NCBI RefSeq assembly: GCF_037976825.1
Contig: NZ_CP150269.1
Coordinates: forward strand, 2,679,501 to 2,743,500
Direction of reading: 5' to 3'
Length of the DNA stretch: 64,000 bases
From: Paenibacillus sp. FSL K6-1330
GTDB lineage: Bacteria > Bacillota > Bacilli > Paenibacillales > Paenibacillaceae
A program made the translations under genes and the position numbers. A model generated the notes under the pieces. The model was not told where the DNA came from and did no database searches. It worked only from the letters and a program-made list of their open reading frames with translations. Positions 38,551-52,880 of the stretch are shown one piece after another. Within the stretch, counting starts at the first letter, position 1. The number at the start of each line of letters is the position of its first letter.

Positions 38551-38655
38551 GAGAGGACGAAACGATTCCGGACAAGTGAGAGCGGTCGCCTTTGCCCCCG
38601 AATTTCATCCTTGCCTAGTACCATTTCAAGAAATTTGGGGGCAACAGTTATCATG
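38551..38655 (+). repeat. Structured intergenic repeat, copy A
   Basis: A 43-base block (GAGAGGACGAAACG ... AGCGGTCGCCTTT) is followed by a hairpin (GCCCCCGAATTTC/GAAATTTGGGGGC, loop about 21 bases) and AACAGTTATC. About 33 of 43 bases match copy B at 52775 without gaps. The stem sequence differs between copies but pairs in both. Function is unknown. Confidence 0.6.
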
Positions 38656-38770
38656 AACGAGACAGACTCCCCGTAATTGCAACATCTTAGGTTAATTTTG
38701 GGAATAATGGTGTAGTAGAAGCTAAACCAAAACCAAAATCAGAGCTAAATTGCAAAGGAGAGTCTGTACT

Positions 38771-39885
38771 ATGAAGGATACCATAAAATACGTAGGCTTA
38801 GACGTGTCGAAGGAAAATATTGCTGTATCTGTAGCTGATCCAGGAAGAGAAGGCGCTCGGTATTTGGGCACGATTCCTCATACCGAGTATCACATCTTGA
38901 AAGTATTGAGGAAGTTAGGCCAACCCAATGAATTAAGCGTTTGTTACGAGGCAGGTCCAACAGGATATCCTTTAGTTCGTTTGCTAACTGCACATGGATA
39001 TGACTGCATTGTTATCGCCCCATCACTTATGCCTAGTCGTCCAGGAGAACGGGTAAAACGGATCGTAGGGATTCGATGCGTCTGGCACAATTACTTCGAG
39101 CAGGTGAATTAACACGTGTGCATGTACCTACTCCAGAGGAAGAAGCGCTTCGTGATTTGGTACGAATGCGTGAAGATGTTAAGGAAGACCGAGCTCGAAT
39201 CCGGCAGCGGATCGGGAAGTTTCTCCTTCGTCATCAGATTGCACCTAAAGAGCCACTTCGCCGCTGGACGGCTAAATACCGGTTATGGTTAGGACGTATT
39301 CCATTCGAGTCCGCTTCTCAACGTTTGGTTCTGCAGGAAATGCTGCATCAGATGGATGAAAATGAAGAACGTCTGAAGCGTTTGGAAGCAGCCATTCACG
39401 AAGAAGCCACGGAAGGGCACCACGCCCCCTTAATACAAGCCCTTCAAACCTTACGTGGAGTAGCTGAAACGACAGCAACAGGAATCGTAGCGGAAGTGTG
39501 TTCATTTACCCGGTTTGGTAATGCGAAGGCTTTCATGGGGTACACAGGTTTGGTGCCGAGGGAATACTCAAGTGGCCAAAGCCGATGGCAGGGAAACATT
39601 ACGAAATCGGGGAATACGCACCTTCGTCGTTTATTGGTCGAATCCGCTTGGAGTTACCGCTATAAACCTGCGCTACAAGGAGAGTTAAAGAAACGTCAAC
39701 AAGGAAAATCTCCTGAAATTCAGGCCATATCCTGGAAGGCACAGCATCGACTACATCGAAAATACACGAAAATGCTGTCAAAGGGTAAGCCTAGTGGCAA
39801 AGCAGTTGTGGCCGTGGCGCGTGAACTAAGTGGATTTATTTGGTCGATTGCCCGAGAACTTGAAGAGAAAAGGATAAATAGGTGA
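38771..39885 (+). pseudogene. IS110 family transposase, frameshifted
   Basis: The N-terminal DEDD RuvC-like part (KYVGLDVSKENIAVSVADPG, YEAGPTGYPLVRLL) and the C-terminal Transposase_20 part (LQTLRGVAETTATGIVAEVC, AFMGYTGLVPREYSSG, QGNITKSGNTHLRRLLVESA) are in different frames. Around 39055-39058 the sequence reads GTAAAACGG where GTAAAAACGG would restore VKTDRRDSMRLAQ, so one A is missing. The intact length would be about 371 residues. AAAGGAGAG precedes the ATG at 38771. A single-base loss suggests recent inactivation. Confidence 0.85.
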
Positions 39886-40285
39886 TCACCATTCCTATTG
39901 GAATCTAGTCGTATTGTGAGAATGGTTGATTCAAGGTGATCCCGTTCCCCAAAAAAACAGGTGGAAGATGAAAAACTGAGTTAGAAGGCAAAGGGAAAAG
40001 CCGTAAGAGAGAATCCACGTCCATCGCTATGTGCCATCCCTCCAAAGGAAACGACGCACGACAACAGTTCGTGGTGCACTCTCTGCAGACGGAGAGAAAA
40101 CATGCGGTATACAAAACCCGCGGATATCAGACTGCTCACCGTTGATAGCTTTTGCCTTCTAGTTCAGTTTTTACACCCTCTCTTGTATAAAGGGGATTGG
40201 GAAAACAAGGGAGTTACAAACTGCTATTTGACAGGTCTCGTTCATATCAGCGATGGGAGGATCGATTCGTACACGGAGCGTCTCC
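39886..40285. other. Non-coding tail of the IS110-type element, possible bridge-RNA region
   Basis: About 400 bases after the transposase stop contain no supported gene. IS110/IS1111 elements carry a structured guide (bridge) RNA in a non-coding end, upstream in IS110 proper and downstream in the IS1111 group. The 5' flank here is only about 100 bases, so a downstream RNA is possible, but no fold was computed and the element ends are not located. Confidence 0.3.
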
Positions 40286-40291
40286 TCACAG

Positions 40292-40342
40292 AAAAAGGGG
40301 GCATTCCGCCAGATCTAAGATCTTTTGGGACACCCCCTTTTT
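40292..40342. terminator. Long bidirectional hairpin
   Basis: AAAAAGGGGG and CCCCCTTTTT are exact inverted copies, with an inner AGATCT-A-AGATCT pair. It forms a terminator-like structure readable on both strands. Confidence 0.65.
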
Positions 40343-40404
40343 GCTTAAGATTCTAGAATGTATAGGTTTTCAGCGAAGCTATTTGCATTTATATGTTTTT
40401 GGGG

Positions 40405-50741: not shown

Positions 50742-50764
50742 GGAGAAAGAAAGGAGGGAAGCCT

Positions 50765-51433
50765 GTGTTTACTGGATTGGTTGAGGAGATCGGCGAAATG
50801 AGGCGTATCGGACGGAAAGGCGAAGCCATGCTGCTGAGCATTTCCGCTAGCCGGATCATGAATGATTTAAAGCTGGGGGACAGCGTATCCGTTAATGGCG
50901 TCTGCTTGACAGCCACAACGATTGACAAAGGAATATTTACGGTCGATGTGATGCCGGAAACCTACAGAAATACGAACCTTAAGGAACTGCAGCCAGGCGG
51001 AAAGGTGAATCTGGAACGGGCAATGGCGGCCGGAGGTCGATTTGGAGGCCATATCGTTCAGGGGCATGTGGATGGCGTCGGCGTCATTCGGAATGTGCAG
51101 GCAGATCAGAATGCCGTAGTATACGAGATTGCGCCCGCGAGTGGGGATGTATTCAAATATATCATTCCGAAGGGCTCCGTCACACTGGATGGAATCAGCT
51201 TGACCGTTGTCAAAACAACAGATTCCTCCTTTACGGTATCCATCATCCCCCACACGCTGGCGGAGACGGTGCTGGCATATAAAAAAGCAGGCGATACGAT
51301 TAATATCGAATGCGACATTTTAGGAAAATATGTAGATCACCTGCTGCATTACGGCTCAGAGAGGGCCGGGAGCAGAGGCGGGACAAAACCGGGAATCAGC
51401 AGGGATTATCTTGCAGAGCATGGATTTGCCTAA
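50765..51433 (+). CDS. ribE: Riboflavin synthase alpha chain
   Basis: A 222-residue protein of two lumazine-binding barrels: MFTGLVEEIG and SVSVNGVCLTATTID in the first, HVDGVGVIRN and VTLDGISLTVVKT in the second. It dismutates two lumazines to riboflavin and a diaminouracil. The start is GTG with AAAGGAGGGA about 8 bases upstream. Confidence 0.95.
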   Translation: MFTGLVEEIGEMRRIGRKGEAMLLSISASRIMNDLKLGDSVSVNGVCLTATTIDKGIFTVDVMPETYRNTNLKELQPGGKVNLERAMAAGGRFGGHIVQGHVDGVGVIRNVQADQNAVVYEIAPASGDVFKYIIPKGSVTLDGISLTVVKTTDSSFTVSIIPHTLAETVLAYKKAGDTINIECDILGKYVDHLLHYGSERAGSRGGTKPGISRDYLAEHGFA

Positions 51434-51480
51434 GCCGAGTGCTTCACATAGAGTCTCCATGAGAAGAAGGAGGAGTAGCG

Positions 51481-52719
51481 ATGGATGAGCGCTTTTCATT
51501 TCATACAATCGAAGAGGCGTTAACCGATTTGAAGGAAGGCAAGGTCGTCATTGTCGTAGACGATGAAGACCGTGAGAATGAGGGCGATTTTATCGCATTA
51601 GCTGATATGGCAACTCCGGAGGTCATTAATTTTATGATCACCGAAGGCAGAGGGCTGGTATGTTTGCCCATGACGCAGGCCAGAGCTCAGGAGCTCGACC
51701 TCAAACCGATGGTTACCCAAAATACGGATTATCATGGAACGGCCTTTACGGTCTCCATTGATCATAAGGATACCACGACAGGCATCTCGGCCTATGAGCG
51801 GTCCATCACCGTCAAAGGTATCTTGGATTCGAATGCATCTGCATCCGATTTCCGAAGACCGGGTCATATGTTCCCACTGATCGCAAAAGATGGAGGCGTC
51901 CTGCGCCGGGCAGGGCATACGGAGGCCGCTGTCGATCTTGCCAGATTGAGCGGGTCCTATCCGGCCGGCGTCATCTGCGAGGTAATCAAGGAAGACGGTA
52001 CAATGGCACGGCTGCCGGACCTTGTGGAGATTGCGAAGAAGCATGATCTGAAGCTGATCAGCATCAAGGATCTGATTCATTACCGCAATGAAAAAGAAAA
52101 GCTGGTCCAGCGAGAGGTAGCTGTGCGGATGCCGACCGATTTCGGCGTGTTTCAAGCGGTTGCCTACACCAACGACGTGGACAATAAAGAGCATGTAGCT
52201 TTGGTAAAAGGGGAGATCGATGGGAATGAGCCTGTCCTCGTACGCGTGCATTCCGAGTGCCTGACAGGAGATGTGTTCCACTCCCATCGCTGCGATTGCG
52301 GTCCCCAATTCGAGGCGGCCCTCCGCCAAATCGATGAAGCGGGCAGAGGCGTTCTTCTCTACATGCGCCAGGAGGGGCGGGGCATCGGCTTAATCAACAA
52401 ACTGAAAGCCTACAAGCTCCAGGAGGAGGGACTCGACACGGTAGACGCCAACCTGAAGCTCGGCTTTGCGGCAGATCTGCGTGATTACGGCATCGGAGCC
52501 CAGATCCTGAAGGATTTGGGGATCAGAAAAATTCGCTTGCTGACAAACAATCCACGCAAAATCAAAGGCCTCGAAGGATACGGCTTGGAGGTGGTCGAGC
52601 GCGTTCCGATCCAAATGCCGGAGAACGAGGATAACACGGGCTACCTGCATACCAAGCAAGCCAAGCTCGGGCATATGCTGAAATTCAACGATATTGAGCA
52701 GAACGAGAGCACCAATTAA
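51481..52719 (+). CDS. ribBA: Bifunctional DHBP synthase / GTP cyclohydrolase II
   Basis: A 412-residue fusion. Residues 1-205 are 3,4-dihydroxy-2-butanone 4-phosphate synthase (VVDDEDRENEGDFIALADMA; GHTEAAVDLARLSG); 206-412 are GTP cyclohydrolase II (zinc Cys in HSECLTGDVFHSHRCDCGPQ; MRQEGRGIGL; LLTNNPRKI). It supplies both precursors of lumazine. AAGGAGGAGTAGCG precedes the ATG. Confidence 0.96.
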   Translation: MDERFSFHTIEEALTDLKEGKVVIVVDDEDRENEGDFIALADMATPEVINFMITEGRGLVCLPMTQARAQELDLKPMVTQNTDYHGTAFTVSIDHKDTTTGISAYERSITVKGILDSNASASDFRRPGHMFPLIAKDGGVLRRAGHTEAAVDLARLSGSYPAGVICEVIKEDGTMARLPDLVEIAKKHDLKLISIKDLIHYRNEKEKLVQREVAVRMPTDFGVFQAVAYTNDVDNKEHVALVKGEIDGNEPVLVRVHSECLTGDVFHSHRCDCGPQFEAALRQIDEAGRGVLLYMRQEGRGIGLINKLKAYKLQEEGLDTVDANLKLGFAADLRDYGIGAQILKDLGIRKIRLLTNNPRKIKGLEGYGLEVVERVPIQMPENEDNTGYLHTKQAKLGHMLKFNDIEQNESTN

Positions 52720-52774
52720 TCACCACATCACAAAAGGTCAATCATGTGGGGAGGTTTGCCTCATGGAACGACCC

Positions 52775-52880
52775 AGCGAAGAGGACGGAATGCTGCTGGA
52801 GAAGCGGTAGCGGTCGCCTTTAATCCTGATTTCTTCCCTCCAGAAAATAGATCATGAAATCAGGAGTTAACAGCGATCGG
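52775..52880 (+). repeat. Structured intergenic repeat, copy B
   Basis: Between ribBA and ribH the block AAGAGGACGGAATG ... AGCGGTCGCCTTT matches copy A (38551). It is followed by a hairpin with different sequence (AATCCTGATTTC/GAAATCAGGAGTT, loop about 23 bases) and AACAGCGATC. A 15-residue frame (MERPSEEDGMLLEKR, 52763-52810, with GGGGAGG ahead) ends in the conserved block; copy A has a similar frame end (EDETIPDK). The 260-base gap otherwise holds nothing supported. Confidence 0.6.

Follow-up and report, generated by a model that had tools for sequence, protein, structure and literature searches.

A dispersed, structure-conserved repeat of Paenibacillus and its relatives that tends to be oriented with replication and may act as folded single-stranded DNA

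The stretch analyzed here, called the window throughout, comprises 64,000 nucleotides of the chromosome of Paenibacillus sp. FSL K6-1330 (NZ_CP150269.1, positions 2,679,501 to 2,743,500; plain coordinates below are those of the window), and it carries two copies of a structured repeat, one (copy 2) between the riboflavin genes ribBA and ribH and one (copy 1) about 14 kb upstream. The first-pass annotation had noticed that the two sites share an ungapped block (38551-38593 and 52779-52821), in which 33 of 43 positions are identical by hand count, and that a pairing stem lies 3' of the block in both copies (GCCCCCGAATTTC/GAAATTTGGGGGC with one G.T pair in copy 1, AATCCTGATTTC/GAAATCAGGAGTT with one bulge in copy 2). 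This observation is confirmed, and the family is larger than noted. The sequence AACAG does follow the hairpin in both copies, whereas the 'NNATC' read after it in copy 1 belongs to the end of an inserted IS110-type element starting at 38648. Copy 2 stands free between genes, as described; copy 1, taken for a second free intergenic copy, sits in the end of a transposon remnant. The two sites do belong to a repeat family with many copies, but the unit is a structure of about 137 nt that includes a long 3' arm, not the block and hairpin alone.

The structure was obtained from copies in the home genome. Of 43 anchored places, 27 were neither split nor shortened, and 25 remained after removal of one with a deletion and one cut at the 5' side; these were aligned by MAFFT without structure information, the structure was written from the covarying columns, and a covariance model was built on it. 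The unit is a long interrupted hairpin, P1-P2-P3-P4, with a two-base-pair mini-hairpin (P3a) at the P2/P3 junction. P1 consists of 2 bp and is followed by an internal loop; P2 has 12 bp with one bulge; the P2/P3 junction holds a single covarying pair (columns 33-115), and the conserved unpaired positions cluster there; P3 has 4 bp, UCGC/GCGA with the compensated variants UCCC/GGGA and UCUC/GAGA, and leads through a 2x2 loop to P4, 15 bp of variable sequence capped by an apical loop. Among the 25 copies, 92.0% of the 899 pairing cells are paired, 25 of 36 pairs are changed on both sides, and the covariation score is 0.434; shuffles give 0.176 and slid partners no more than 0.157. None of 500 shuffles reached any of five measures; sliding the partner by 1-3 columns lowered pairing to 32-49%, a control that leans towards the structure since the structure was derived from the same alignment. 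In a larger set of 109 distinct copies (a model-fitted alignment with related rows), 34 of 36 pairs are changed on both sides. Outside the core, a further inverted repeat, at near-equal distance on both sides and with its own sequence in each copy, was found in 20 of 89 copies (score at least 9; 3.0 expected from mismatched flanks).

As a DNA query against the whole home genome, copy 2 gave 16 matches including itself (best other match 9.9e-15) and copy 1 gave 38 including itself. The covariance search for further copies that had been proposed at the outset found many in the home genome, the genus and the order. In the home genome, with the best 150 of 2832 first-look candidates scored, there were at least 63 matches at E<=0.01 and at least 52 at E<=1.6e-7; a few of the weakest correspond to P4's complement, and some of the matches are copies that insertions have interrupted. 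The element occurs in all 37 genus genomes searched (the home genome and 36 of 36 further ones), with 5 to at least 54 matches each at E<=0.001. The distribution searches were carried out within the order, where, with the best 16 candidates per genome scored, matches at E<=1e-4 were obtained in at least 155 of 198 genomes and in at least 29 of 43 genera; at least three genomes of the same family have none in this search. Tandem arrays with units of about 180-490 nt are present at several loci, and divergently oriented pairs about 160-475 nt apart at seven (L252, L261, L263, L264, L265, L287 and 2183844/2184284 of the home genome). The spacers of the divergent pairs show no common sequence by eye; at L265 the spacer ends are mutually complementary (ATTCACCG..CGGTGAAT). 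Two genomes, G010 and G014, also have a class of matches of about 171-183 nt and about 65-97 bits, which may be a subtype in which P4 is longer or a domain has been added.

Taken as a whole, the family is a non-coding repeat that is scattered through the genomes of Paenibacillus and its relatives and conserved in structure. Related short reading frames had been noted in both copies of the window. These are not conserved: a ribosome-binding-site-like motif with a start codon occurs in 7, 6 and 5 of the 109 copies in frames 0, 1 and 2, respectively (5 copies lack the anchor and could not be scored), and the frame of copy 2 is broken in its ortholog L235, which reads ATG GAA TGA. A small peptide encoded in the 5' arm was rejected, given that such starts are no commoner in the frame first proposed than in the other two.

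Comparison of orthologous sites shows selection on the structure in place. The regions around the best copies in genome G077 match element-bearing loci of the home genome in 9 of 11 cases (L283 on one side only), and those in G004 in 8 of 9; there were three misses (L291, L279 and L280), of which L279 and L280 look like transposon-borne copies. Twenty-one ortholog comparisons were made on a model-fitted alignment, in which home copies recur, one of them five times; the array L281, the copies of which could not be paired off, was dropped. Differing positions amounted to 96 of 1507 in stems, 81 of 891 in the junction and 152 of 456 in the apical loop. Only 11 pairs were lost, compared with 55 expected under random placement of the same substitutions within stems (the lowest of 1000 trials gave 44), and 13 were gained. 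Double changes that keep pairing numbered 23, compared with 3.7 expected, but 21 of the 23 come from L094/L283, L101/L278 and L101/L290, comparisons that may reflect conversion or, for L283, non-orthologous sites. With these three removed, differences were 35 of 1291 in stems and 115 of 390 in apical loops, with 6 pairs lost compared with 20.9 expected (lowest trial, 14) and 2 double changes compared with 0.2. With one comparison per home copy (10 in all), 5 pairs were lost compared with 12.8 (lowest trial, 9), and there was no double change. Thus, the low loss of pairs is robust, whereas the excess of double changes is no independent evidence at orthologous sites. The selection on pairing suggested by the first-pass annotation is accordingly borne out by covariation among the home copies together with the low pair loss at orthologous sites.

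The mini-hairpin bears on the chemical nature of the folded molecule. RNA tetraloops of the GNNA kind are normally GNRA. Among the 109 copies, which are partly related, 105 loops follow a simple rule, GNA in 42 of 44 triloops and GNNA in 63 of 65 tetraloops. The third base of the GNNA loops is T in 26, C in 25, A in 7 and G in 5, i.e. a pyrimidine in 51 of 63, so that GNRA accounts for only 12 of 63. The stem is GC/GC in 81 of 109 copies and AC/GT in 21. This junction mini-hairpin obeys the rule stated for extraordinarily stable mini-hairpin DNA, d(GC-GNA/GNNA-GC), which asks for a loop of GNA or GNNA, N being any base, and for two or more G-C pairs (PMC4686876); the motif is known as a synthetic one from the portion of that paper cited here, whereas it occurs here within a chromosomal repeat family.

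A second line of evidence is the orientation of the element relative to replication. Four closed genomes were examined, with dnaA marking the origin and the point across from it serving as terminus; copies of at least 97 bits were counted, and same-strand neighbors within 3 kb were collapsed. The structured strand is the leading-sense strand, i.e. the lagging-strand template, at 76 of 91 sites (p ~3e-11; home genome 25/28, G010 17/19, G014 19/24, G006 15/20). Among the weaker matches listed, 67 of 87 are fork-oriented. The orientation of neighboring genes, determined with a simple frame caller, was available at 65 of the 91 sites (home genome 25/28, G010 19/19, G014 21/24, G006 0/20). The element points with and against the fork at 33 and 4 sites, respectively, where both neighbors run with the fork, at 11 and 4 where they are convergent, at 7 and 1 where they are divergent, at 2 and 0 where the frame caller assigned no arrangement, and at 3 and 0 where both genes run against the fork. 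The orientation is therefore better explained by the fork than by the genes, although the decisive class is small. Along the chromosome, the terminus third holds few of these high-scoring copies (41, 37 and 13 sites from origin to terminus). A comparable orientation is described for IS200/IS605 single-strand transposons such as IS608 and ISDra2, which, in the part of the source used here, are oriented with replication and move through lagging-strand DNA, the transposed strand lying in the lagging template (PMC5371812). The element shares this fork orientation; it differs in lacking a transposase gene, and no fixed ends or target motif were found.

The features of the two copies in the window are collected in Table 1.

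Table 1. Features of the two repeat copies in the window
Feature	Position	Strand	Remarks
Copy 1, 5' part of core	38543..38647	+	transposon-borne subtype, ending ..GGGGGCAACAG; covariance match
IS110-type element inside copy 1	38648..40249	+	PF01548, PF02371; transposase frames 38780-39109, 39076-39882
Copy 1, 3' part of core	40250..40283	+	past the IS110-type element (GCGATGGGAGG..CGGAGCGTC)
Transposase N-terminus remnant (MDQLYLPMDLEDD..)	38321..38434	-	from the transposon that bears copy 1 at its end; 30/40 residues identical (75%) to L125 transposase
Copy 2 core	52771..52906	+	free-standing, between ribBA and ribH; 136 nt; covariance match G000:2732271-2732406, 121.7 bits; orthologs in 9 related genomes
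Copy 2 P0 5' arm (AAGGTCAATCATG)	52734..52746	+	inverted repeat with 52933-52945; compensatory changes in orthologs
Copy 2 P0 3' arm (CATGTTTGACCTT)	52933..52945	+	inverted repeat; copy-specific outer stem
Copy 2 P2 5' arm	52785..52797	+	pairs with 52882-52893
Copy 2 mini-hairpin P3a, GC-GGTA-GC	52804..52811	+	loop of GNA/GNNA class
Copy 2 P3 5' arm TCGC	52814..52817	+	pairs with 52873-52876
Copy 2 P4 5' arm	52820..52834	+	pairs with 52856-52870; hairpin of the first-pass annotation
Copy 2 P4 3' arm	52856..52870	+	pairs with 52820-52834
Copy 2 P3 3' arm	52873..52876	+	pairs with 52814-52817
Copy 2 P2 3' arm	52882..52893	+	pairs with 52785-52797

The gap between ribBA and ribH was compared among relatives, as had been advised, and among 100 genus genomes, at least 10, the home genome included, have the core there; the alignment runs through it in the home genome, G077, G104, G078, G100, G004, G075 and G019, and tandem copies are present in G006 (two) and G002 (three). 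Those of the remaining genomes that appear among the matches listed show split matches at the gap. Of 80 ribH loci in a species-level collection (mostly titled Paenibacillus), 5 have model matches, none of them in the ribBA-ribH gap. Taken together, these counts indicate that the rib copy is a feature of one part of the genus, either gained there or restricted to it. The copy may affect ribH, as the first-pass annotation suggested. The outer stem P0, also contained in computed folds of copy 2, shows a compensated change at this site: AAGGTC-AA../..TT-GACCTT in the home genome, G077 and G078, as opposed to AAGGTC-TT../..AA-GACCTT in G104 and G100. An attempt to read insertion ends from empty rib sites failed, the gaps in other species being too diverged and the ends of free copies not fixed. 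In G104 and G100 (L236 and L238), P2 and its flanks are changed on both arms compared with sister genomes, whereas P3-P4 are alike; this looks like conversion or template switching with pairing kept. Rfam also places an FMN riboswitch at 49190-49373, upstream of the rib genes that adjoin copy 2.

Copy 1, as read from the sequence, is the end of a dead transposon split by an IS110-type insertion, the latter perhaps inactive itself since its transposase lies in two overlapping frames. The transposase remnant has no Pfam match of its own; the related L125 transposase has DUF772 and DDE_Tnp_1 domains, and the carrying transposon belongs to what we take to be the IS1182 family. G012 and G018 also hold copies that have the same upstream sequence and a GGGCTGTCCC..GGGACAGCCC end. 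In 5 of 5 places among the loci examined, the left end of the IS110-type element comes after GGGGGCAACAG (P4's end and its neighbors), so that the element lies within the core or immediately past that sequence. In L047 (about 2579500-2581350 of the home genome) and L046 (about 3439100-3440970), the core is interrupted after CGCCT by another insertion, about 1.7 kb long. It appears that more than one kind of insertion sequence (IS) lands in the core. Short transposon-borne cores without P3-P4, deleted between two CAGCG repeats, lie at 3242391, 3253349, 3265813, 1771269 and 3454551 of the home genome.

The reading we favor, with belief in it and doubt about it evenly balanced, is that the element acts as folded lagging-strand DNA that is bound by a protein, rarely copied into new sites, and retained by selection. 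Passage of the fork would expose the structured strand as lagging-strand template; the exposed strand would fold around the mini-hairpin; a trans-acting protein of the host or of a mobile element would recognize the folded strand; and new copies would arise by rare single-strand insertion, with those that confer some benefit being kept. The excess of G.U over A.C mismatches on the structured strand (126:44 overall; 34:7 in P4 without one site) indicates that this strand, not its complement, is the folded one. More tentatively, and with the balance tilting towards doubt, the order-wide family could be described as a natural DNA 'aptamer' at replication forks, selected at its sites, with a single-stranded DNA fold that is exposed on the lagging-strand template and carries the extra-stable GNA/GNNA mini-hairpin at a three-way junction.

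Several observations weigh against this reading. The G.U excess is expected of RNA and single-stranded DNA alike, and the computed folding of copy 2 departs from chance to much the same degree as DNA (z = -3.26 and -3.21 for the two strands) and as RNA (z = -3.12). Genes also favor the fork direction (131 of 168 long frames at these loci), and of the 40 elements that lie between co-directional genes, 33 follow those genes too, which leaves room for transcription; only 3 sites have both neighbors opposing the fork, and four elements flanked by fork-directed genes oppose fork and genes alike. Several other IS families are likewise reported as orientation-biased in the portion of PMC5371812 drawn on here, so that polarity alone is no proof of single-strand transposition. 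No trans-acting protein was found, either from neighboring genes (51 loci) or in a Y1 search (22 genomes). In the 51 loci with 1.5-kb flanks, no neighbor gene is common apart from transposases and a few paralogous genes; the largest clusters, with the frames of the repeat itself excluded, are a regulator (7 loci), a permease (6 loci) and a DDE transposase, and four of the regulator/permease loci are overlapping views of one place. A common neighbor gene as mobilizer was rejected on this ground.

The strongest alternative, which we consider possible but on the doubtful side, is an RNA element transcribed with neighboring operons, either a processed RNA, a protein-binding site or a cis-regulator, with one member per locus. 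The covarying helices and the highly conserved junction are what such an element would show, as are the tolerance of G.U above A.C, the RNA fold score and the presence of one copy inside the rib operon; with arrays uncollapsed, 42 of 70 sites lie between two genes co-directed with the element and 10 between oppositely directed genes. Against RNA stand the scarcity of GNRA among the tetraloops, an orientation that tracks the fork at sites where the genes run against it (3 of 3) and between convergent or divergent neighbors (18 of 23), and the lack of relatedness among the neighbors. Structured RNAs in Rfam share covarying helices and a conserved junction with the element, but no Rfam 15 family reaches its gathering score on it in the 64-kb window and 12 loci, and at E<=10 the 12 loci gave only chance-level matches on it; a known RNA was rejected on this basis, in line with the first-pass annotation, which recognized no named RNA. 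For HEARO/IscB, no Rfam match lies on the element; the RRXRR search had no hit in the home genome, but none in the control genomes either. The Rfam searches also showed a T-box-like leader below gathering score (77.7 of 93 bits) at L009 72-354, beside the home copy at 6706898, and pieces of a group II intron (D1D4-3, D1D4-1) at 14084-14404 of the window.

An unlikely alternative is a signal of the host for replication or chromosome maintenance, a polar site on the lagging-strand template that serves the cell and is not mobile now, comparable to primosome-assembly or segregation motifs. Polarity and selection in place agree with it, as does the recurrence of element-bearing loci of the home genome in G077 and G004. 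Against it are the variation from 5 to more than 50 matches per genome within one genus, the same-family genomes with no match, and the low share of sites in the terminus third (13 of 91), the opposite of what is typical of segregation motifs.

That the family is a plain miniature inverted-repeat transposable element (MITE), or debris of the IS1182-like DDE-transposase element that carries a core near its end, is very unlikely: copy 1 and near-identical sets in the home genome, G012 and G018 do lie beside that DDE transposase or a GGGCTGTCCC..GGGACAGCCC end, so that this transposon-borne subset does share ends with an autonomous element, but simple patterns for the upstream or end motif of the transposon occur in only 4 of the 32 examined home copies of at least 97 bits, the other 28 having neither; the flanks of copies are unrelated and sometimes palindromic, and selection on structure in place is unlike debris. 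Least probable of all, and largely refuted as a general mechanism, is a repetitive extragenic palindrome (REP) of the REP/RAYT type, a non-autonomous hairpin moved by a Y1 tyrosine transposase: the intergenic location, high copy number, hairpin and divergent pairs are shared with REPs and REPINs, but PF01797 finds nothing in 10 of the 22 genomes tested that carry the element (the home genome has one match) and 28 of 31 loci around Y1 genes lack the element, two of the three that have it being the same place, so that the mobilizer is generally not a Y1 transposase, neither of this type nor as in an IS200/IS605 derivative, and a unit of about 137 nt with a three-way junction differs from REPs, given as 20-40 bp in the part of PMC3733652 used here.

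The element stands out as a structured interspersed repeat that combines the junction fold, the mini-hairpin rule and selection in place with no transposase found; no family compared here has all of these. In searches of the open-licence literature of PMC, no paper was recognized as describing the family, which is no proof that it is unpublished. Structure-conserved elements are usually taken to be RNA, whereas in this case DNA is favored by the loop rule together with the replication polarity. With 5 to at least 54 matches per genus genome, the family is common enough for the question of DNA or RNA to be tested directly. For annotation, the finding means that these genomes hold dozens of structured loci between genes, one of them in the rib operon.

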